A stretch of DNA of 64,000 nucleotides from Syntrophotalea carbinolica DSM 2380 (GTDB lineage: Bacteria > Desulfobacterota > Desulfuromonadia > Desulfuromonadales > Syntrophotaleaceae), in contig NC_007498.2 in the NCBI RefSeq assembly GCF_000012885.1, forward strand, positions 1,240,001-1,304,000, given 5' to 3'. Made by a program: the position numbers and the translations under genes. The notes beneath the pieces were generated by a model. It made no database searches, had not been told where the DNA came from, and saw only the letters and a program-made list of their open reading frames with translations. Numbering within the stretch: position 1 is the first letter of the stretch; every line of letters begins with the position of its first letter. Shown one piece after another: positions 39,091 through 49,049 of this stretch.

Positions 39091-39987
39091 ATGGAAAACT
39101 TTGTTCTCATAGGTGTTTTTGTCGGGCTTGGGGTTCTGTTTCGATACCTTGAGGCCTTTCCGGAGCAAACGCCGCAGGTGCTGAATATGTTTGCTCTGTA
39201 TGTTGCGCTGCCAGCCGTCATCCTTCTCAAGGTACCTCACCTCAGTTTTTCAGGGGACATGATCGTTCCTGCGGTTGTTCCCTGGGCGATGCTGATATTG
39301 TCTGCCGCCCTGATTTTGCTCGTCGGCAGAAGTCTACAATGGTCACGGGAAACCATCGCCGTCTTGCTTCTGGTTGTGCCGATCGGCAACACTTCTTTTA
39401 TGGGGGTACCGATGGTCAACGCGTTCTTCGGAGATTCGGGTATTCCCTATTTGATCATTTACGACCAGATCGGAACCATGCTCATCTTTGCCATTTTCGG
39501 ATCCATCATACTTGCGATGCATAGCTGTAAGGGGAAGGTGAACATAACCGACGTCATTAAACGGGCTGTCCTTTTCCCGCCGACGCTGGCGCTGCTGGTC
39601 GGATTGGCGCTGCGTTCCTGGGCTTATCCGGAGGCCCTGATCAGGGGGCTGGAAACCCTGGGGGGGATGTTGACCCCGCTGGTGATGACCGCGATAGGTT
39701 TTCAGTTGCGGATAAGGCTCAGCCCAACGGTTTTGCGTCCGTTAGGCTTCGGCCTGGCAGTCAAGTTGGTCATTGCTCCGGTGGTCGCTCTGCTCGGATG
39801 CCGGCTGTTGGGGTTGAACGGATTGGGGACGGATATCGCCGTGTTTGAGGCGGGCATGCCGCCGATGGTTACCGCCGGTGCCCTGGCCATTGCCGCGGGC
39901 ATCCTGCCGGAACTGGCTGCTGCCTTGGTCAGCCTGGGGATGGCCCTGGCATTCGTGTCGTTACCGTTACTTTATTGGATTCTTTGA
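39091..39987 (+). CDS. AEC (auxin efflux carrier) family permease
   Basis: 298-residue inner-membrane transporter with about ten hydrophobic segments. AEC features: N-terminal ALYVALPAVILLKVP, the GNTSFMGVPMVNAFFG motif after helix 4, and the C-terminal FEAGMPPMVTAGALAIAAG repeat-like motif. AEC carriers export malate, malonate or similar anions. Divergent from a LysR regulator. Confidence 0.9.
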   Translation: MENFVLIGVFVGLGVLFRYLEAFPEQTPQVLNMFALYVALPAVILLKVPHLSFSGDMIVPAVVPWAMLILSAALILLVGRSLQWSRETIAVLLLVVPIGNTSFMGVPMVNAFFGDSGIPYLIIYDQIGTMLIFAIFGSIILAMHSCKGKVNITDVIKRAVLFPPTLALLVGLALRSWAYPEALIRGLETLGGMLTPLVMTAIGFQLRIRLSPTVLRPLGFGLAVKLVIAPVVALLGCRLLGLNGLGTDIAVFEAGMPPMVTAGALAIAAGILPELAAALVSLGMALAFVSLPLLYWIL

Positions 39988-40059
39988 TTCGGAACTCTGG
40001 CGGGGGCCGTACTTACGATCCAAGTCGGGGGAAACAAAATGTGTTGGCGGGTGCATGTA

Positions 40060-40110
40060 AAGGGGGCGCGTCTACAGAGGCCATTTATTGAATTCTGTAG
40101 ACGCGTCCGT
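40060..40110. repeat. Palindromic REP-like repeat, copy A
   Basis: A-GGGGG followed by a 12-bp perfect stem (CGCGTCTACAGA at 40067-40078, TCTGTAGACGCG at 40094-40105) and A/T-rich loop. Shares AATTCTGTAGACGCG with copy B and TCTAC/GAATTCA with copy C. It lies between the convergent ends of the AEC and AraC genes and may terminate both. Confidence 0.75.
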
Positions 40111-40120
40111 TTTGTTGACA

Positions 40121-41044
40121 TTATCCTCTTTTCCCTCCTGCGACCTGCCGAAGGTTGGTAATGTCGCGCAATGGTGGCGCACCGAACAGACGACTGTACT
40201 CCCGACTGAACTGGGAAGGACTTTCGTAGCCGACCTGGAAGCCGGCAGTAGCTGCATCCAGGCGTTCCATGAGCATCAAACGCCTGGCCTCCCGTAAGCG
40301 GAGTTGCTTTTGATACTGCAAGGGACTGAGAGCGGTCATCGAACGGAAGTGATGATGAAAGGTCGAGGTGCTCATGCTTGCCTGTTCGGCGAGATCGTCG
40401 ATGCGCAAGGGTTGCGTGAAGTTGCCCTTTAACCATTCGATCGCCCTGGCTATCTGCTGGCTCTGGCTCCCCGCCGTCGCGATCTGGCGCAACCGTGCGC
40501 CCTGATCCCCCACCAGCAGGCGGTAGATGATCTCCCTTTGGATAACCGGTGCCAGGATCGGGATATCCTCATCCTCATTCAACAGATCGATAAGTCTCTG
40601 AAAAGCGTTTAGCAGCGGCCGCGTCACCTCGCCGGTCGCCATGCCGCGGCTCGACTCCCGGGTCCGTGGCGGCGGAAGCTGGCTATCCGCCATGAGCTGG
40701 GAAACCTCGCGCAGGTCGAAGGTCAGCCGCAGCCCCAGGTAAGGTTTTTCCGGACTGGCTTCGGTGATCTGCACGACCGTCGGCAGGTGCACCGAGGTGA
40801 TGAGGTAATGCTGGGCGTCGTAGACCAAGCTTTCGTCGCCCAACTTCACGCGTTTGGCTCCCTGCGCAATCAGACAGATACTCGGCTGGTACATGCCTGT
40901 GACCGGTTCGGTTGGCTCAGTCCGCCTGAAGAGCGACAGGCCGGGGATGGCAGTTGTGTGCAGCTCGCCCTGTTCAGTCAATCGGGCAATTCTCTGGAGT
41001 AAGCATTCCAGCGCATCACTGGTTTTGCCGTTTTCTTTTCTCAT
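40121..41044 (-). CDS. AraC family regulator, YqhC type (copy 2)
   Basis: 307 residues, paralogue of the regulator at 31635-32579 with the same layout: AraC_N domain (PGLSLFRRTEPTEPVTGMYQ, ICLIAQGAKRVKLGDESL) and two helix-turn-helix motifs (LRIDDLAEQASMSTSTFHHH; FQVGYESPSQFSREYSRLFG). A copy of the shared operator lies 89 bases upstream but is oriented away from the gene, as at the first copy. Ends next to palindromic repeat A. Confidence 0.92.
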   Translation of the reverse strand: MRKENGKTSDALECLLQRIARLTEQGELHTTAIPGLSLFRRTEPTEPVTGMYQPSICLIAQGAKRVKLGDESLVYDAQHYLITSVHLPTVVQITEASPEKPYLGLRLTFDLREVSQLMADSQLPPPRTRESSRGMATGEVTRPLLNAFQRLIDLLNEDEDIPILAPVIQREIIYRLLVGDQGARLRQIATAGSQSQQIARAIEWLKGNFTQPLRIDDLAEQASMSTSTFHHHFRSMTALSPLQYQKQLRLREARRLMLMERLDAATAGFQVGYESPSQFSREYSRLFGAPPLRDITNLRQVAGGKRG

Positions 41045-41132
41045 CGCATTCCTTTATTTCCCTGTGTTCTTTACAGGATAAAGATTACGCGACCATGCAA
41101 TGAGCAGACAACTATTTTCTGTTGGTTCAGAC

Positions 41133-41167
41133 GATCGGGCAAGAATCAGACAGGATCAAGCAAACGG
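41133..41167 (+). promoter_or_regulatory. Putative AraC (YqhC-type) operator, site 3
   Basis: GATCGGGCAA, then ATC, then AGGATC at the conserved spacing; ends in ACGG. Upstream of AraC copy 2 in inverted orientation. No rightward gene follows, which suggests that a divergent target gene was lost when the defence patch arrived, or that the site serves autoregulation. Confidence 0.6.
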
Positions 41168-41237
41168 TTTCAGTTTGCGGATCGGGGAGGGGGTAGCCAG
41201 GGGGAGGTGGGGTGCATAAACAAGGCGCATATGCATA

Positions 41238-41290
41238 TAAAGGGGTCGCGGCTACAAATTTCAAAAGATAAATTCTGTAGACGCGACTCT
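41238..41290. repeat. Palindromic REP-like repeat, copy B
   Basis: AAAGGGG followed by arms GTCGCGGCTACA (41245-41256) and TGTAGACGCGAC (41276-41287), pairing at 11 of 12 positions around an A/T-rich loop. Located 25 bases beyond the stop of the large NTPase gene, where it could act as its terminator. Confidence 0.75.
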
Positions 41291-41314
41291 GCAACTGCTC
41301 TTGACAATCAGCGT

Positions 41315-44300
41315 CTAACCTCGACGCTTCGCCAAATCTATACCAATTACCTTTATAGCCTCAAGATCAGGTCGCCGCTGATTGATTCGATTCGCTTCAA
41401 TCTGCACCTTGGCGATCAGTTCTTCGAAAGTCAGTCGTCGCCCGGAGACCCAGTATGCCTGACGCCTTCTGGCCAGCAAAAAAACACCATAACGGGAGCG
41501 TACGTCCCGTAAATATTGGCCGACGAGTTGCCTTTGTAGGCGTTCGATGTGTTCATTGAAACTCCAGTTGTCAGAAATTTTCAGTTCAATGACACATGGC
41601 GCATCAATTTCCTGAGCATGCACACGAATGTCGGGACGCTTGGCATCGGCCAGTTCTTCTTCTGGAGCAATGCTGTATTTCCCGCGTGCCGCTTTTCGGA
41701 GCGAATCTGAAAACCAAATACGCAATTCGGTTTCCTGATCGACTCTTTGCAAGGTCGCGGCAACGCTTGTGTCGCCTTCCTCAAGGTCGTATTTGATGTC
41801 ATCGAGACGGATGCAAACAAGATCAAATAGCTCGCCAGCAGTGGCGGGTCGTTTTTCCCCATCCTCGGCAAAAGCGACAACGTCGGAGGGCTCCCAGGGA
41901 GAGAGCTCGGTATCCGCAGCGGCCCTGCGCAGTGCTATGACAAGCATCCTCTCGCGGGAACGTTTGTGAGGCAGAATTTTGGAGAAATTCAGTAAAGTTT
42001 CAAATGCATGATGTCCAGGCGTATCACAGACTTTGCCCAACAAATAGCCTCGCATATCCTCCGCATTGTCACGCGCATCCGGAGTAAAAACACCATCATG
42101 AATATTGTCATCTTCAATACGGATATGTTGATAGATCAGCGGCACGAACTTTTCCAGAGATTCAATTCGCTCAAAATCTCGGTAATTACTACCAAAGCGA
42201 CTGAAATGATGATGGCCCATCGCACCGCAAAAGCGGATCATCTTTTCCCGCCGCTTGTCTTTGCCGTTTTCTTTTGATAACCATTGTTGTAAGGCAATCT
42301 GTGCTCCCTCGGCGTCGACACACAACCACGCAACTAGCCAGGTTAATAAGCGACTTTCATCCTCAGACTCGATATGCCGCCGTTGTGCCAACTCTGCTAA
42401 GGCACGGCCATCCAATCCATCCCCTTGCAAAACGATGGACAGGGCGTTCTCCAGGGTCTGGTCGCGCCTCGGCTCCTTGTTTTGAAGCAGTTGAAAGATG
42501 TAAGGTCCATAGCGATCTTTTAGTGGCTTCAGTCTGGAATAACGAAGTTGCGCCAGCATGTGGTGAACCGGCGTCGAGCGCTCTCCATCGTTCAATCCGA
42601 ACTCCCAAAGAAACTCTTTTTGCAATATTTCATCGATGGCTTGAGGCTGGCTGGCTAGCAAATCCTTGATCCAAGGAGGGAAACCGTTAATCTCATGAAT
42701 GGCATAGCGAACAGCCAACAGTGCTTCTTCATGGGACAGACACCGTGCCCAGTCGGGTTTCATCCTCGCCTCAATGGCTAAACCAACCATCCCGACAATC
42801 AGATCATTAGGAATGCCATTAGCATCCTGCTCAGACTTTAGTTTCGGACAGAAGTGCCTCCAGTAAGCCATCAACCCATCACGTGCAGCTTCTGCGACCT
42901 CAAGCCCAAATTCCTCGATCAGCGTTTCCCATCGGTCGCTCCCCCATTTGGAGCCTCCTTGATTCTTCTGTTCGCGAATATTCGCTGCAAGGTCATAAAG
43001 GTCGGGAAATTTCGAGGCAATCGTTGAACCTGAAATATCACATATTTGTTGGGGATCGGATTGCAATCTTTGTATCCAAGCTTGCCGGTTTTTTTTCTGC
43101 TCTCGCTCTTTGTTATTTTGTTCCTGTCTCCACTCGTTCCTCCGACGATCGCATTCCAATTCTTCAGATGACAAGGATGGTGGGTTAAGATAGCTACCTA
43201 ACTTTGCCGTCATCTCCACGTTACGGCGGGCAAGGGTTTTCATTTCTTCCAGATGCAATTTGTCACGCCCTGCATTGTGCCACAGGGATAATGCAACGGA
43301 ATACGCAACCAACTGATCATCTTTGTCCGGCAACAATTCGGCTTGAGCGAGAAAATATGTGAAATCTTCAGGCATCACTTTCCATGGAGCCGGTTCAAAT
43401 TTAATAAACCACCAGTCATCAAGCCGCTCGTTCTTTTTTTTTCGATTATCTCTAACCCGTCGGACTGCTCTCCAGAAAAAAACGTGTCGTAAATCTGGCA
43501 TGTTGTCGATGGCAGATTGCAAATCTGCCTTTGAGTCTTCATCATAATGTCGCGATTGGGCATTAAGTTCGGCGGCACGTAGTACGGCGTCATTTAGGCA
43601 AAGTGATGGATGCCTGAGAAAGCCATTAGCAATTTCAACTGCATGAGGTAACAGCCAAGCATATCGCTTCGAAATATCGCAGTGAAAATTTTCAACAAAT
43701 GGCTCAAGTTCAAGCAAACGAATAAGACCGGTCAGCAAAGGAAGAAGAGTTTCTTCGGAGCCTTTCTCGATAGCTTGCTCCAGTGCATACGATATTGGAC
43801 TTGTCGAAAACCGCTTTGGTTTGGGTATTTTGGCGAGAGTATCCAGTAACGCATCAACGGTGATCAACTCAGGGAAAAATTGCTCACATACGGCGCTGAT
43901 CAAGTCGACGTCGCCTTTTTCCGTATCGGCAAGTATGGCCAAAACAAGACGCTCTTGCTGCTCTTTAGCTCCGCAGACGCCGATTGCCCGAATTCCCCCG
44001 AGTCGCGTGTAACGATCCATTGAGAGATCGAGGGCAAGATTCAGGGCAATCTCTGCGCATTCCTTGATCTCCCCTTGCCAAATTGTTCGCAGGAGGAGAT
44101 GCCTAACCTCTTCGTTTGATTGATATTTCTTCAGAAGTTCGATGATGGTGTCTGCGAGTCGGGTGTCCGCCAAGCGTCTTATCGCAGCCAGATCGAGAGA
44201 TTCGTCGTAATATTGGTTGGAGACACATACCTCGGCAAATTGGCGTAGCAATTTTTCCCGCACTGGGATAGGGAGTCTGGATGGGTCTCCGTAACCGATC

Positions 44301-45610
44301 AGGATTTCCGGAGCAATGTTGCATAGTCGCTGGCATATTTTTTCATCCCAAAGCGCCAGCCAAGCAACGATCGGCTTCATTGACGGTACGACGACATTCA
44401 GGCCATACCGTTCAGCGAAAAGCAACTGTTCGATACAGCGTCGGGACTTGCCTTGTTGCAGTAAGTTGTAAAGCCATTGTGCCGTAAGATATTCGCGCAC
44501 TGAGCGATGATGTATCTTCGCTCGGCCATAGGTCGCCTCGTCAAACAAGGCGCGACGCAACAACGACTCGACGTCGCCGGATGTCCAATCCACCAGAACC
44601 TCTTTGGGATCGAGAGCATGGCGTGAAAATATGGAGGGGTCTTTGGGATCGGGCAGAGCAATAAAATTGCAGCGTGAGAGGGTCAGAGCCGCCGCGATGC
44701 TCTCGGCACCTGCGCGAGCCTTATCGGGTGAGAGGGGGCTCTTTTTGTCATGTTTCGGATTGGTCTCGGTCAGTTTCTTGCCGATATTGTATTCAGTCAT
44801 TTCGGCTAGCGAGGCAATTTCCCCAAACTCTTGCCAGAAAGCGATAAGGTCGATCAGATCCCGTGGCCGTTCGGCAAAGATGCCGGCATCCGCCCGCCCA
44901 ATCGCCTCGATAAAGCGAGCAGGTTCATGGACACCACGATGGCAGGCAAATAATTGAATCTGTTCCCAGGTCAACGGAGCGAGGCGGAATATACTGATCT
45001 TTAATTCTGTATCGGTGGATTCGTCCTTATCAGGCAACACAGGAGTTTTATCGCCTTCCGTTTCATTTTCTTTTTGAAAAATTTTTTCTTTGGGGACAGG
45101 CAGCCACTCCTCAACCAACGACAGATCGGAGATTGCATCCCAATCACTTCCCCGCCCCGAAATGTATATAAATGCTCTATGGGTCACATCATTGAGAGCT
45201 CTCGCGATGCGCTTCAATGCTCGTTTAAAACGATCGTGGCTGACCAGCCGCGCTTCATCGACGGAATCTAGAAAAAACCAACCGGACTGGTCGGTGTCGC
45301 GCCAAGCCCTGAACTCAGAGTAGGTCCCAACATCGAAGGCCTCTTCGATACCTATCTCCGCTAACTCTTCAATCGCACAAAAAAAGGCAGCCTTCCCTTC
45401 GGCATGAAGCCGGTGCGCTGTTTCTCTGAACTCTTCAGTCTTCCCCGTTCCGGCCTCCGCAAGGATGACAACTCGTGGTAGTTTCAGAAGTTCGGGCCAT
45501 CCAGGTTGAGAGTCTCTCGACCATAAATGCTGATAACGGAGGGCATCCGGATCGGGATCCTCTTGGTCACTTACTGCCCAGAATTTTCGATTAAGCTCAA
45601 TGTGAGTCAT
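41315..45610 (-). CDS. Large NACHT/STAND-like P-loop NTPase with C-terminal PD-(D/E)XK-like domain
   Basis: 1431 residues, not assigned to a named system. N-terminal P-loop domain: Walker A VVILAEAGTGKTEEF (near residue 50) and Walker B WFFLDSVDEARL (near 112), as in NACHT/STAND signalling ATPases; a sensor-like YISGRGSDWD follows. Residues about 400-1250 are helical and repeat-like (HEAT/TPR style) with few other marks. The C-terminus (about 1310-1400) holds RPDIRVHAQEIDAPC then VIELKISDNW, a PD...ExK pattern of restriction-type nucleases. The composition is visibly more A/T-rich than neighbouring genes, and the gene is flanked by repeat B and gene fragments, which points to transfer. A single-gene anti-phage role resembling Avs-type proteins, but with reversed order, is my inference. 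Confidence 0.8.
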   Translation of the reverse strand: MTHIELNRKFWAVSDQEDPDPDALRYQHLWSRDSQPGWPELLKLPRVVILAEAGTGKTEEFRETAHRLHAEGKAAFFCAIEELAEIGIEEAFDVGTYSEFRAWRDTDQSGWFFLDSVDEARLVSHDRFKRALKRIARALNDVTHRAFIYISGRGSDWDAISDLSLVEEWLPVPKEKIFQKENETEGDKTPVLPDKDESTDTELKISIFRLAPLTWEQIQLFACHRGVHEPARFIEAIGRADAGIFAERPRDLIDLIAFWQEFGEIASLAEMTEYNIGKKLTETNPKHDKKSPLSPDKARAGAESIAAALTLSRCNFIALPDPKDPSIFSRHALDPKEVLVDWTSGDVESLLRRALFDEATYGRAKIHHRSVREYLTAQWLYNLLQQGKSRRCIEQLLFAERYGLNVVVPSMKPIVAWLALWDEKICQRLCNIAPEILIGYGDPSRLPIPVREKLLRQFAEVCVSNQYYDESLDLAAIRRLADTRLADTIIELLKKYQSNEEVRHLLLRTIWQGEIKECAEIALNLALDLSMDRYTRLGGIRAIGVCGAKEQQERLVLAILADTEKGDVDLISAVCEQFFPELITVDALLDTLAKIPKPKRFSTSPISYALEQAIEKGSEETLLPLLTGLIRLLELEPFVENFHCDISKRYAWLLPHAVEIANGFLRHPSLCLNDAVLRAAELNAQSRHYDEDSKADLQSAIDNMPDLRHVFFWRAVRRVRDNRKKKNERLDDWWFIKFEPAPWKVMPEDFTYFLAQAELLPDKDDQLVAYSVALSLWHNAGRDKLHLEEMKTLARRNVEMTAKLGSYLNPPSLSSEELECDRRRNEWRQEQNNKEREQKKNRQAWIQRLQSDPQQICDISGSTIASKFPDLYDLAANIREQKNQGGSKWGSDRWETLIEEFGLEVAEAARDGLMAYWRHFCPKLKSEQDANGIPNDLIVGMVGLAIEARMKPDWARCLSHEEALLAVRYAIHEINGFPPWIKDLLASQPQAIDEILQKEFLWEFGLNDGERSTPVHHMLAQLRYSRLKPLKDRYGPYIFQLLQNKEPRRDQTLENALSIVLQGDGLDGRALAELAQRRHIESEDESRLLTWLVAWLCVDAEGAQIALQQWLSKENGKDKRREKMIRFCGAMGHHHFSRFGSNYRDFERIESLEKFVPLIYQHIRIEDDNIHDGVFTPDARDNAEDMRGYLLGKVCDTPGHHAFETLLNFSKILPHKRSRERMLVIALRRAAADTELSPWEPSDVVAFAEDGEKRPATAGELFDLVCIRLDDIKYDLEEGDTSVAATLQRVDQETELRIWFSDSLRKAARGKYSIAPEEELADAKRPDIRVHAQEIDAPCVIELKISDNWSFNEHIERLQRQLVGQYLRDVRSRYGVFLLARRRQAYWVSGRRLTFEELIAKVQIEANRINQRRPDLEAIKVIGIDLAKRRG

Positions 45611-45751
45611 ACGAGATACTCGGGGTAAAATTGGGACATTTTGCTTTTCTCTTATTTTTCAGTGTTAGTTCAAAATAGCAGTTGTCTCCCAAAACGTGTA
45701 TGCAGCTCAAAAATCGATTATGGCAAAAACAGAAACGTTTCCCCATTTTCC

Positions 45752-46780
45752 TCATTCCCCATGCCCCTTCTTCTCAATCCTCTTCACCACCCGCTCAAAC
45801 GCATCCTCCTCTTGAGCCTCTTCCTCCAGTCGGCGTGCATGAAACTTGTCATACTCTGTCTGGGCAAGCTGCTTCGCCACTTCGGCGCGCACATGCCCGG
45901 CATGGTCGAGCACATCGCGCTCGTTGAAACTCAAAAAGGCATCCAGTTTGGAGGCCCAGTCGGCCATGTTCATGGGACGCTTGCGTCTGGCCTGGTCCTC
46001 GGCGTAATCGAGATACATGGTAACGATGCGGTTGAGACCGTTCAGCTCTTCCGCGGTCATATAATTCTTGGCGACTGCCACATCCGGCTTGCGCACCTTG
46101 GCGCCTTTCCAGCTGGTAAGTCCCATGTTCGGCTTCTTTGCATCGGCTCGCTCGGCAATCAGTTCGGCGGCGGTGTGGCCGGTAACGGCCCAGTGGAGTT
46201 TGTTCTGGACGGTTTGAAAAAAGGTCTGTGCCGGTTCGCTCCGGGAATCGTAATCCACGGCGGTGGCGTAGATGTCGGTGATTTTGCGGTAAAAGCGTTT
46301 CTCGGAGGCGCGGATATCGCGGATGCGTTCGAGCAGTTCGTCGAAATAATCGGCGCCGAACGGGGTGCCGATATTTTTCAACCGCTCGTCGTCCATGACG
46401 AAGCCTTTGACCAGATATTCCTTTAGCCGCTCGGTGGCCCAGCGCCGAAACTGGGTGCCGCGATGTGAACGCACCCGGTAGCCGACCGCGATGATGGCAT
46501 CGAGATTGTAGTGTTTGACGTCTCGATTGACTTGTCGTCTACCTTCGATTTGAACTGTCAAGTATTCCTTGACAGTTGCCTTCTCGTTCAATTCGCCTTC
46601 GGCAAAAATATTCTTCAGATGCAGGCTGATATTCTGCTTGGTCACCTGGAACAGTTCCGCCAAAGCAGCTTGCGGCAACCAGACTGTTCCATCCTCGAGA
46701 CGCACATCGATTTTGGTCTGCCCGTCCTCGGTTTGATACATCAGAATGTCGGAGGTTGCTTCCGGAAGGTATTCATTCAT
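45752..46780 (-). CDS. RhuM family protein
   Basis: 342 residues of the RhuM/virulence-protein family: N-terminal DGTVWLPQAALAELFQVTKQ (Fic-Doc-associated or Bro-like DNA-binding part) followed by NISLHLKNIFAEGELNE, VNRDVKHYNLDAIIAVGYRV, RSHRGTQFRRWATERLKEYL, and a helical C-terminus ending in Glu/Lys-rich sequence. RhuM genes are frequent passengers in restriction-modification and toxin-antitoxin loci; the biochemical role is unknown. Start at the ATG overlapping the stop (ATGA) of an upstream gene remnant. In the same direction as the large NTPase, 141 bases upstream of it. Confidence 0.88.
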   Translation of the reverse strand: MNEYLPEATSDILMYQTEDGQTKIDVRLEDGTVWLPQAALAELFQVTKQNISLHLKNIFAEGELNEKATVKEYLTVQIEGRRQVNRDVKHYNLDAIIAVGYRVRSHRGTQFRRWATERLKEYLVKGFVMDDERLKNIGTPFGADYFDELLERIRDIRASEKRFYRKITDIYATAVDYDSRSEPAQTFFQTVQNKLHWAVTGHTAAELIAERADAKKPNMGLTSWKGAKVRKPDVAVAKNYMTAEELNGLNRIVTMYLDYAEDQARRKRPMNMADWASKLDAFLSFNERDVLDHAGHVRAEVAKQLAQTEYDKFHARRLEEEAQEEDAFERVVKRIEKKGHGE

Positions 46781-46869
46781 AAGCCAAACTCCTTCAGGCC
46801 GGTCGCCATTTCTTCCCGTACCTGCGCCGGTTCCTTTTCGATTCCGTCGATACGTTGGCCAGTTATCCA
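46777..46869 (-). pseudogene. C-terminal remnant of a gene upstream of rhuM
   Basis: A leftward 30-codon fragment (WITGQRIDGIEKEPAQVREE, then MATGLKEFGL, stop) overlaps the rhuM start by ATGA. Its amphipathic end fits a restriction-modification subunit (HsdM or HsdS tail), the usual upstream partner of rhuM; I cannot prove which. Everything upstream is lost at palindromic repeat C. Confidence 0.5.
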
Positions 46870-47027
46870 GAGGGGGCATCTACGGAATTCAGTTTTTTAA
46901 ATCTGGAGATGCAATTTTTCAGACTTGTCGCCACCTGGCGCCGCGGCAGATGGGTTGCTTCGCAGAATTCCACCAGGTTATAGGGCGTGATCTTATCGGC
47001 GACAAACTCGCGGAACTGGGCGGGCCA
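46863..47027 (-). pseudogene. Unidentified coding fragment
   Basis: An open stretch of 54 codons without a start (WPAQFREFVADKITPYNLVE, FCEATHLPRRQVATSLKNCI, SRFKKLN...) runs through repeat C to a TAA. It has protein-like composition but I do not recognise the family. It probably is the tail of a truncated gene, perhaps the toxin partner of the HipB-like regulator upstream. Confidence 0.4.
46870..46916. repeat. Palindromic REP-like repeat, copy C
   Basis: AGAGGGGG followed by imperfect arms GCATCTACGG (46876-46885) and CTGGAGATGC (46903-46912); the TCTAC-GAATTCA core matches the reverse complement of copy A. It lies exactly at the junction of two truncated genes. Confidence 0.55.
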
Positions 47028-47069
47028 AGGCTACCGATTGGTCCCGTCATACGGATAGGGACTCCGCCA

Positions 47070-47324
47070 TCACTCCTCCCAGGACTCAACGGTGAGACGC
47101 ATACCGAGCATACGGCAGACCGTCAGGATGCTCGAAAGCTTGACGTCTCCTTTGGCCGTTTCGATCCGGCTCAGAGTATCGACCGCGACCCCGCAAAATG
47201 CTGCCGCCTCGTGGATACCCAGTCCTGACTGTGTCCGGCGGGCACGAACGAACGCTCCCAAGGTTTCGGCATCGAGGGGGCCGCTCTGCACAGGCATTGG
47301 CATCGGCTTGATGGTTTTGGGCAT
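47070..47324 (-). CDS. HipB-like XRE antitoxin/regulator
   Basis: 84-residue helix-turn-helix protein: LGAFVRARRTQSGLGIHEAA, then CGVAVDTLSRIETAKGDVKL, ending in LGMRLTVESWEE. This is the Xre type found as HipB antitoxin, which represses its own operon. Start is the second in-frame ATG, five bases after GGAGG. No intact hipA follows: an ATG overlapping the stop begins MAESLSV and then stops, as expected of a one-base-broken hipA start. Two palindromic operators lie upstream. Confidence 0.82.
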   Translation of the reverse strand: MPKTIKPMPMPVQSGPLDAETLGAFVRARRTQSGLGIHEAAAFCGVAVDTLSRIETAKGDVKLSSILTVCRMLGMRLTVESWEE

Positions 47325-47340
47325 TCCGTCCTCCATAAAA

Positions 47341-47358
47341 ATACTGTTTACGCAGTAT
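47341..47358. promoter_or_regulatory. Operator 1 of the HipB-like gene
   Basis: Inverted repeat ATACTG / CAGTAT within an 18-bp unit, 17 bases upstream of the start. The same unit recurs with three changes at 47390-47407, as in hipBA promoters with repeated operators. Confidence 0.65.
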
Positions 47359-47378
47359 ATATGGCAGATATGGGCCAT

Positions 47379-47418
47379 CGTCAACTAAAATACTGTTTTG
47401 ACAGTATTTTAGTTGACG
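47379..47418. promoter_or_regulatory. Operator 2 inside an 18-bp perfect hairpin
   Basis: Perfect 18-bp inverted repeat (CGTCAACTAAAATACTGT and its complement) with loop TTTG. Its centre, 47390-47407, repeats the operator-1 unit ATACTGTTT...CAGTAT. It may be a high-affinity HipB-type site. Confidence 0.7.
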
Positions 47419-47497: not shown

Positions 47498-47532
47498 GAT
47501 CAGGCAATGATCCAATAGGATCGGTCTACCGG
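47498..47532 (+). promoter_or_regulatory. Putative AraC (YqhC-type) operator, site 4
   Basis: GATCAGGCAA, ATC, AGGATC, GGTCTA and CCGG at the shared spacing. It lies 86 bases upstream of the second iron alcohol dehydrogenase; a TATGAT sequence at 47551-47556 could be the -10 box. Confidence 0.7.
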
Positions 47533-47617
47533 TTCCGAAGGCACTTTGCGTATGATCGAAGCACATCAAGGGCAATCCGCTTTACGAAGAATTGCTGTCA
47601 CTCCCGGAGGAAACAAC

Positions 47618-48808
47618 ATGGACAATTTTATTTACAGCATTCCGACCACGGCCTATTTCGGCAAGGGACAGATCAAGGTGCTCGGCGAAACCATCAAAAC
47701 CTATGGCGGTTCCAAAGTGCTGCTGGCTTATGGCGGCGGCAGTATCAAGAAAAACGGCATCTACGATGCGGTTATCGAACAGCTGGACAAGGCCGATCTT
47801 GCTCGTGTGGAGTTGAGCGGCATCCAGCCGAACCCGCGCATCGAAAGTGTGGAGGAAGGTATCGATCTGTTTCGGAGAAACGGCTGCGATTTTATTCTGG
47901 CTGTGGGCGGCGGATCGACCCTGGATGCCTGCAAAGCCATCGCTGCCGGAGTGGAGTTTGACGGCCCGGCTACCGACCTGTTTGTCAATGAGTCAGGCTT
48001 GTCGCCGATTTATGATGCGGCTCCTCTGGCAACGATTCTGACCATGGCAGGGACCGGTTCCGAAATGGACATGGGAGCGGTCATTACCGTCGGCGAAGAT
48101 CACAAGAAAAAAGTAGTCATGCACCCGCTGCTCAATCCCAGGTTTTCCATCCTGGATCCTGAGTACACCTTTAGCGTGCCGGAATATCATTCCATGGCGG
48201 GGGCTGCGGATATCCTCTGCCATTTGATGGAGCAGTATTTCACCAACGATGTTGCCGCGAAGGTTCAGGATCGCATGAACGAGGGCGTCATGAAGGTGGT
48301 GCTGGAGGATGCCGTGAAAATCCTGGCCAATCCGCAGGACTATGATGCCCGCGCCAACATCATGTGGGCCAGTTCCATGGCGTTGGCCGGCTTCCAGTTT
48401 TTGCTCGGCAAGCCGTCTCCCACCTTTCCGCTGCACGGCATGGGGCACGAACTCTCCAGCATGTACGACATGACCCACGGCGTGACCCTGGCGCTGCTGA
48501 CCCCCGCCTGGATGCGCCATACCATAAGCGCGGCGCCGGAACACCTGCCGATATTCGCACGATTCGCCCGCAACGTCTTCGACATCCGCGAGGAGGATGA
48601 TGCCAAAGCCGCGGAACAAGGCGTCGCACGGCTGGTGGAATTCTACGCCGCCATCAAGATGCCCGCGAACCTGCGCGATGCCGGCGTCAGGGAAGAAGAC
48701 CTGGCAGTGATCGCCGGAAAAGCCGTGGAAAACGGCAAGCTGGGCATCCTGGCTTCTCTTGGCAAGGATGAGGTGCTGCAGATTCTGCGGGCGGCATTTA
48801 CCGGTTAA
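47618..48808 (+). CDS. Iron-containing alcohol dehydrogenase (YqhD/BDH-like)
   Basis: 396-residue group III alcohol dehydrogenase/aldehyde reductase. NADP-binding GGG motif (AVGGGSTLDACKAIAA), TMAGTGSEMDMGAV, and metal ligands in AADILCHLMEQYF and FPLHGMGHELSSMYDMTHG. In E. coli YqhD reduces toxic short aldehydes with NADPH. Intact, unlike the paralogue at 33896-35048. CCCGGAGG precedes the ATG. The AraC-type operator upstream ties it to the proposed regulon. Confidence 0.93.
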   Translation: MDNFIYSIPTTAYFGKGQIKVLGETIKTYGGSKVLLAYGGGSIKKNGIYDAVIEQLDKADLARVELSGIQPNPRIESVEEGIDLFRRNGCDFILAVGGGSTLDACKAIAAGVEFDGPATDLFVNESGLSPIYDAAPLATILTMAGTGSEMDMGAVITVGEDHKKKVVMHPLLNPRFSILDPEYTFSVPEYHSMAGAADILCHLMEQYFTNDVAAKVQDRMNEGVMKVVLEDAVKILANPQDYDARANIMWASSMALAGFQFLLGKPSPTFPLHGMGHELSSMYDMTHGVTLALLTPAWMRHTISAAPEHLPIFARFARNVFDIREEDDAKAAEQGVARLVEFYAAIKMPANLRDAGVREEDLAVIAGKAVENGKLGILASLGKDEVLQILRAAFTG

Positions 48809-49049
48809 AAGAAGACAGGGATGGAAAAGCGAAAATCGGGCAAAAACGGTCCGGAAATTCCGCCTCCAGGTCGGGACAGGCGCCCAGCGGATGGGGCAAT
48901 TCCGGTATCGGGATAGCCGGGGGAGCCGCTTCCTGAAGGAATATCTGTTCGCGGCCATTTTGCCCGCAACAACATCGACCATCAATGCTGGGAAACGGTA
49001 ACCATCGCCAGCCCTGCCGGATGGCTGACTTCAGGCAAAACGTTAAGCA
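48809..49049. other. Intergenic region, possible degenerate operator
   Basis: Between the alcohol dehydrogenase and the metallo-beta-lactamase gene. AATCGGGCAA at 48834-48843 resembles the first half of the AraC-type operator, but the rest does not match. No gene or terminator seen. Confidence 0.3.

Follow-up and report, generated by a model that had tools for sequence, protein, structure and literature searches.

A divergent HyoA-type NACHT protein with a predicted C-terminal nuclease in Syntrophotalea carbinolica

The stretch of DNA analysed here (the window: 64,000 nucleotides of Syntrophotalea carbinolica DSM 2380, contig NC_007498.2, positions 1,240,001 to 1,304,000) carries at 41315..45610, on the minus strand like all the window genes and protein features placed below, an uninterrupted open reading frame (ORF) of 1431 aa, stop codon included in the coordinates, whose product belongs to the HyoA family, already named as antiphage. 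We assign a probability of about 0.8 to the reading that this hyoA-type gene encodes a receptor related to the NOD-like receptors (NLRs) and acts as a single-gene anti-phage system, with a NACHT switch, a HEAT/ARM-like arm serving as sensor and autoinhibitor, and a C-terminal PD-(D/E)XK effector. The main interest of the protein lies in its unusual polarity, with the nuclease on the sensor side. The gene is an intact, divergent member of its family, for which we found neither a solved relative by sequence nor a mechanistic paper in the literature, and the window copy offers a way to test how an NLR works whose effector lies at the sensor end.

Family membership and invariant residues

The protein matches the NCBIfam model NF058534 (NACHT domain-containing antiphage protein HyoA) at 1595.7 bits against a curated equivalog cut-off of 1200, its residues 6-1429 aligning to profile positions 1-1430 of 1430, whereas for the second-best family, EruA (NF058535), its 205.2 bits fall short of the cut-off of 1000 and exclude it from membership. 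In size and parts the window copy is like other HyoA proteins; it differs in its divergence, the closest relatives seen (loci L029 and L039) being about 46% identical to it, and two other copies in the same class outscore it on NF058534 (1803 and 1827.6 bits). It is the only gene of its type in the 3.67 Mb single-contig genome, and a phmmer search of PDB sequences returned no match for the protein. On these sequence grounds the protein is a divergent HyoA copy, a good new example and not a new kind of system. An earlier annotation made from the letters and their ORFs alone, hereafter the sequence-only reading, had implied novelty, which is unsupported because NCBIfam already names the full-length family as antiphage and because EruA has the same order of parts; the same reading would have given way to placement in a named family whose role is not defence, and the family found is a defence family.

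The ORF coordinates, the length and the motifs quoted in that reading were all recovered as given, to which we add the strand: Walker A, AEAGTGKT (residues 51-58; 45437..45460), Walker B, FLDSVDEAR (residues 113-121; 45248..45274), and, toward the C-terminus, PDIRV (1326-1330) and IELK (1341-1344). In a set of 14 sequences, composed of the window copy and 13 homologues retrieved by profile or tblastn with no Walker B pattern used, G56, K57, D115, D118, E119 and R153 are invariant (14/14), as are E1317, D1327, E1342, K1344, Q1361 and Y1366. A broader sample was drawn from a profile scan (alignment A1) of GTDB species genomes, which gave 168 relatives in 177 candidate stretches, 80 loci being kept; an earlier single-sequence scan of species genomes had found no relative among 57 stretches. 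The resulting alignment comprises 70 full-length sequences, namely the window copy, 68 species-genome loci and one contig of the viral collection, 13 of 82 loci having been left out as broken, truncated or aligned short of the query ends. The C-terminal residues from E1317 to Y1366 just listed are present in 70/70, against a background in which the mean share of the commonest residue is 0.33-0.67 per 50-residue block. Because these loci were chosen with the Walker B pattern, the conservation of Walker B in this set is built in; the selection had no bearing on that of the C-terminal motif. Judged from the alignments, the Walker and D...ExK motifs are not chance occurrences.

Three parts in an unusual order

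AlphaFold2 models were computed from 59 sequences (the window copy and 58 of 69 loci after an 80% identity filter). The model of residues 1-700 (pLDDT 87.8, pTM 0.85) supports a NACHT domain by its fold: Foldseek matched it to NOD2 (5irm, E 3.1e-8), to NLRP2, NLRC4 and NLRP3 and, at rank 18, to Avs4 bound to the phage portal (8dgf, E 7.1e-6), and VIA-align superposed model residues 1-462 on NLRC4 (8fw2; Z 14.5, root-mean-square deviation 6.1, 365 residues aligned). Three NLRC4 or NAIP-NLRC4 entries stand above Z 13, the value under about which a VIA-align match may mean no more than an arrangement common in helical models; in 31 of the best 35 rows the title names an NLR protein or complex, and the other four are oocyte cytoplasmic lattice chains whose identity is absent from the titles. 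The N-terminal NACHT/STAND nucleoside triphosphatase (NTPase) seen in the sequence-only reading is thus upheld by structure and placed at residues 1-462 (44225..45610). The Pfam NACHT model has no match at the hyoA gene and matches two other places in the same genome, both below cut-off, and no Pfam model reached its cut-off over the whole protein. Since the NACHT match runs from residue 1, it leaves no space for an effector ahead of it.

Residues ~463-1275 (41786..44224) are all-helical in both models, in agreement with the ~850 residues of helical repeat expected from the letters, and match ARM/HEAT proteins in Foldseek and VIA-align alike. Searched against the PDB, a profile of residues 1-700 matched, with a best E of 8.4e-10, the HEAT-like repeats of artificial alphaRep proteins, as would fit repeats of the HEAT type; the corresponding profile of residues 690-1431 returned an ETS-domain match and one other, both at chance level (best E 0.13). 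This superhelix is the probable sensor arm.

The second model, of residues 690-1431 (pLDDT 90.5, pTM 0.62), continues as a long run of helices to ~1308 and then shows strands and helices ordered as in a PD-(D/E)XK core, with D1327 beside a first strand (1328-1332) and E1342 and K1344 within a second (1335-1345). VIA-align aligned residues 1278-1425 (41336..41779) with the DNA-bound restriction endonuclease EcoT38I (7edb; Z 8.4, root-mean-square deviation 3.5, 124 aligned); over almost the same residues it also aligned the small subunit of R.BspD6I (2p14; Z 7.7, 3.5, 123 aligned). These Z values are middling when taken alone, and it is because fold and motif are taken together that we call residues 1278-1425 a predicted PD-(D/E)XK-like nuclease, showing both the core fold and the D...ExK pattern. 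By their conservation, the predicted active-site residues are E1317 (41660-41662), D1327 (41630-41632), the ExK element E1342-L-K1344 (41579..41587), Q1361 (41528-41530) and Y1366 (41513-41515). The PD-(D/E)XK fold serves several substrates, and DNase activity is here predicted from fold and motif, so one may ask whether the domain acts on RNA or is purely structural, keeping the fold without DNase activity; we consider this very unlikely, given that none of the predicted catalytic positions varies in the 70 sequences or across EruA and that both nuclease fold matches are DNases.

The effector domain of Avs proteins sits N-terminal. The window protein, with its NACHT match from residue 1 and its nuclease at 1278-1425, shares with Avs4 the STAND/NACHT switch but lacks the N-terminal effector of Avs/AVAST, and the reversal of order relative to Avs that the sequence-only reading had pointed out is therefore supported and extends to bNACHT25. 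According to the accessible part of PMC12169576, bNACHT25 and bNACHT32 combine a STAND/NACHT switch with a PD-(D/E)XK effector needed for defence, as the window protein may, but carry that effector at the N-terminus and not at the C-terminus. The animal NLRs NLRC4, NOD2 and NLRP3 have in common with it the fold of the NACHT module; unlike them, it has a HEAT-like arm in place of leucine-rich repeats, nothing before the NACHT module, and a nuclease of its own. Varied architectures are described in the accessible parts of two papers on STAND systems (PMC7159879, PMC8195603), this one not among them, and the names HyoA and EruA are both absent from the corresponding part of the DefensePredictor paper (PMC13092281).

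EruA resembles the window protein in its NACHT-like N-terminus and in the C-terminal E/D/ExK/Q/Y motif, and differs in length, its model having 1318 positions against 1430 for HyoA. The motif residues are carried by an EruA protein above cut-off (L138, 1409.9 bits) and by a near-EruA protein (L137, 835.9 bits). Two further NACHT-like proteins, L135:786-4916 (1377 aa) and L136:1107-5195 (1363 aa), have the same C-terminal nuclease motif, fall below the HyoA and EruA cut-offs, and are by sequence a possible third family. As the motif is common to HyoA, EruA, L135 and L136, a NACHT-like module followed by a C-terminal nuclease is a trait of a wider group and not the quirk of a single gene. That all of these form one superfamily of reversed-polarity NLRs, with the nuclease at the outer end of the sensor arm, is a tentative proposal to which we give slightly less than an even chance; if true, activation would have to proceed through release of the sensor arm or clustering by it, unlike that of Avs proteins and inflammasomes with their N-terminal effectors.

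Partners, mode of action and points against

Flanks of up to 6 kb were taken around the 80 loci, exceeding 1 kb upstream in 68/80 and downstream in 66/80, and the nearest mechanically called ORF of at least 110 aa on each side was compared with Pfam, 136 of 141 such ORFs being scanned and five of more than 900 aa left out. No family occurs in more than 3 of the 136, although a partner smaller than 110 aa could escape this test. The absence of a recurrent partner favours a single-gene system, and hyoA is, as far as these flanks tell, probably one; together with the antiphage name of the family, this makes the stand-alone anti-phage role conjectured in the sequence-only reading a probable one. 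The upstream neighbour in the window is a RhuM-family gene (45752..46879; Pfam PF13310, E 6.2e-122) on the same strand as hyoA, 141 bases away, and a PADLOC candidate defence gene (PDC-S05), all of which would suit a two-gene system of RhuM and the NACHT protein. RhuM, however, lies near hyoA in only 2 of the 80 loci; we therefore rejected it as a constant partner and give the two-gene system hardly any credence.

We propose that the N-terminal NACHT module is a nucleotide switch and that the long superhelix acts as both sensor and autoinhibitory arm. A phage product, or the effect of the phage on the host, would lift autoinhibition; ATP binding would then drive oligomerisation, and the clustered C-terminal nucleases would cut DNA, with the outcome that the phage is stopped and its DNA lost or that the infected cell is killed (abortive infection). 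This scheme of sensing, oligomerisation and DNase action is built by analogy with Avs and with bNACHT25 and bNACHT32; for the last two, the accessible part of PMC12169576 describes a required PD-(D/E)XK domain and degradation of DNA upon infection. Another arrangement would have the C-terminal domain cut invading DNA directly, in the manner of a restriction enzyme, with the NTPase and the repeats gating or loading it and no abortive infection. The fold neighbours of the domain are indeed restriction endonucleases, and the HEAT-like arm ends in it, whereas Avs proteins have their nuclease beside the NACHT module. Yet no methyltransferase or specificity family recurs among the 136 flanking ORFs (none in more than 3/136), the NTPase module is NLR-like, and the NLR-related nucleases bNACHT25 and bNACHT32 act after sensing (accessible part of PMC12169576); direct restriction accordingly strikes us as improbable, if less so than the other alternatives.

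A number of results weigh against the receptor-nuclease reading. The nuclease match itself is of middling Z (7.7-8.4) and comes from VIA-align alone: the sequence-only reading, which would have fallen had the C-terminus matched no PD-(D/E)XK structure, is not refuted by this result, though the top 50 Foldseek matches to the model of residues 690-1431 contain no nuclease, being helical-repeat proteins and a few others such as aminopeptidases (best E 7.1e-3). A profile of residues 1270-1431 against the PDB gave six rows, none of them a nuclease and the best being ETS domains (E 0.013), and a Pfam scan of 59 copies of the domain gave 24 families with one member each (best E 0.0078), the only nuclease of the restriction types being DpnII-MboI, in one member at E 0.11. 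PADLOC 2023, Avs/AVAST models included, matched the protein to 0 families at E up to 1. Our literature search found no source behind the name HyoA, none naming any two of HyoA, EruA and NACHT, and no phage challenge or other experiment on the window copy; a title match to EruA concerned an unrelated E. coli regulator. Lastly, four of seven annotated records examined have no clear defence system nearby, although in one of these, labelled Acinetobacter phage MD-2021a, a gene labelled endonuclease adjoins the homologue. The remaining three, which speak for the reading, have defence-type genes within about 8 kb: SIR2 and an ATP-binding protein in the first, SIR2 on one side with a helicase and an ATP-binding protein on the other in the second, and a type III restriction system in the third. 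We do not claim that homologues are enriched in defence-gene neighbours, since the 136 flanking ORFs were scanned with PADLOC without a control. With these points counted, the reading of a HyoA-type single-gene receptor with a C-terminal nuclease keeps the probability given at the outset.

The site in the genus, neighbours and spread

Three genomes of the genus show the same site in three states: with hyoA, with a hyoA remnant beside hipBA, and empty; we count the last two states in favour of the receptor reading. In the window, a divergent pair formed by an AraC gene and an alcohol dehydrogenase gene brackets the block of hyoA, RhuM and hipB, in which hyoA and RhuM are whole and only remnants of hipA are left. 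In the sister genome G003, matches to the AraC gene (80% over part, in two frames) and to the dehydrogenase gene (84%, with one internal stop) are divergent and about 0.2 kb apart, which is the empty site. In G001 the same two flanking genes, inside both of which the contig ends, enclose hipB and hipA and then, directly after hipA at ~2591-2672 of L134 (G001:C75), the final 11 codons of hyoA with its stop; this remnant spans 82 bases including 3' flank and is 84% identical (E 3e-22). On the simplest reading of these alignments, hyoA would have been lost in G001 and hipA in the window, G003 having neither; the G001 assembly is 78% complete, so that a hyoA copy elsewhere in G001 is possible. The ten 500-base bins that cover 41000-45999 have a GC content of 45-55%, against 54-61% in six bins on either side (39500-40999 and 47500-48999). 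The putative defence patch with RhuM, a HipB-like gene and gene debris that the sequence-only reading had outlined is thus a site of gene turnover, and the debris is identified as a hipA remnant.

Beyond RhuM, the upstream neighbours comprise the remnants of a deleted hipA (46915..47069) and a HipB-like helix-turn-helix gene without its hipA (47070..47384; HTH_31, E 5.1e-9), whose orthologue adjoins hipA in G001; window positions 46915-47010 and 47049-47407 align to the hipBA region of that sister genome at 87.5% and 82.7%. Just upstream of the hipB-like gene, at 47338-47418, lie ACTGT...ACAGT palindromes, one a perfect 18-base inverted repeat and one imperfect, which by position and sequence are probably its operators.

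At three other loci a DUF3800 gene of 313 aa begins two bases past the hyoA stop (L037:9778-10716, L083:10308-11246 and L091:9299-10237). All three (3/80) are rhizobial-type, and their copies are 90-96% identical and hence of one lineage, of which the gene is a possible accessory.

Relatives are patchily spread. In the class of the window genome, matches occur in 16 of 277 genomes and exceed the cut-off in 6 of 277, the window genome included; the five other genomes of the genus are all without a match. The titles of the 80 loci name Pseudomonadota, Desulfobacteraceae, metagenome-assembled genomes of other Deltaproteobacteria, Cyanobacteria, Chlorobiaceae, Nitrospirales, Spirochaetales, Planctomycetota and others. 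E. coli genomes gave no DNA match with 4000 of the 4293 coding bases as query. Viral contigs contributed 2 relatives among 23 stretches, and phage records 2 matches, both labelled Acinetobacter phage MD-2021a; the record examined shows ordinary bacterial chromosome genes around the homologue, and we make no claim of phage carriage. Matches were found in 63 of 72,556 plasmid records, of which 36 cover at least 80% of the query, all below 60% identity. So patchy a spread of sequences suggests horizontal transfer of hyoA.

Two plasmid settings may be recorded in their own right. An IncC-typed plasmid of Vibrio parahaemolyticus carries a homologue (L025) flanked by IS630 copies, with a type III restriction system and a qnrVC4 gene nearby. 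Among the 20 Burkholderia glumae plasmids listed (H2-H21), an ISNCY-family transposase lies under the hyoA match in 17 and an IS5-like one in 1, and on H3 the hyoA match is one unbroken piece.

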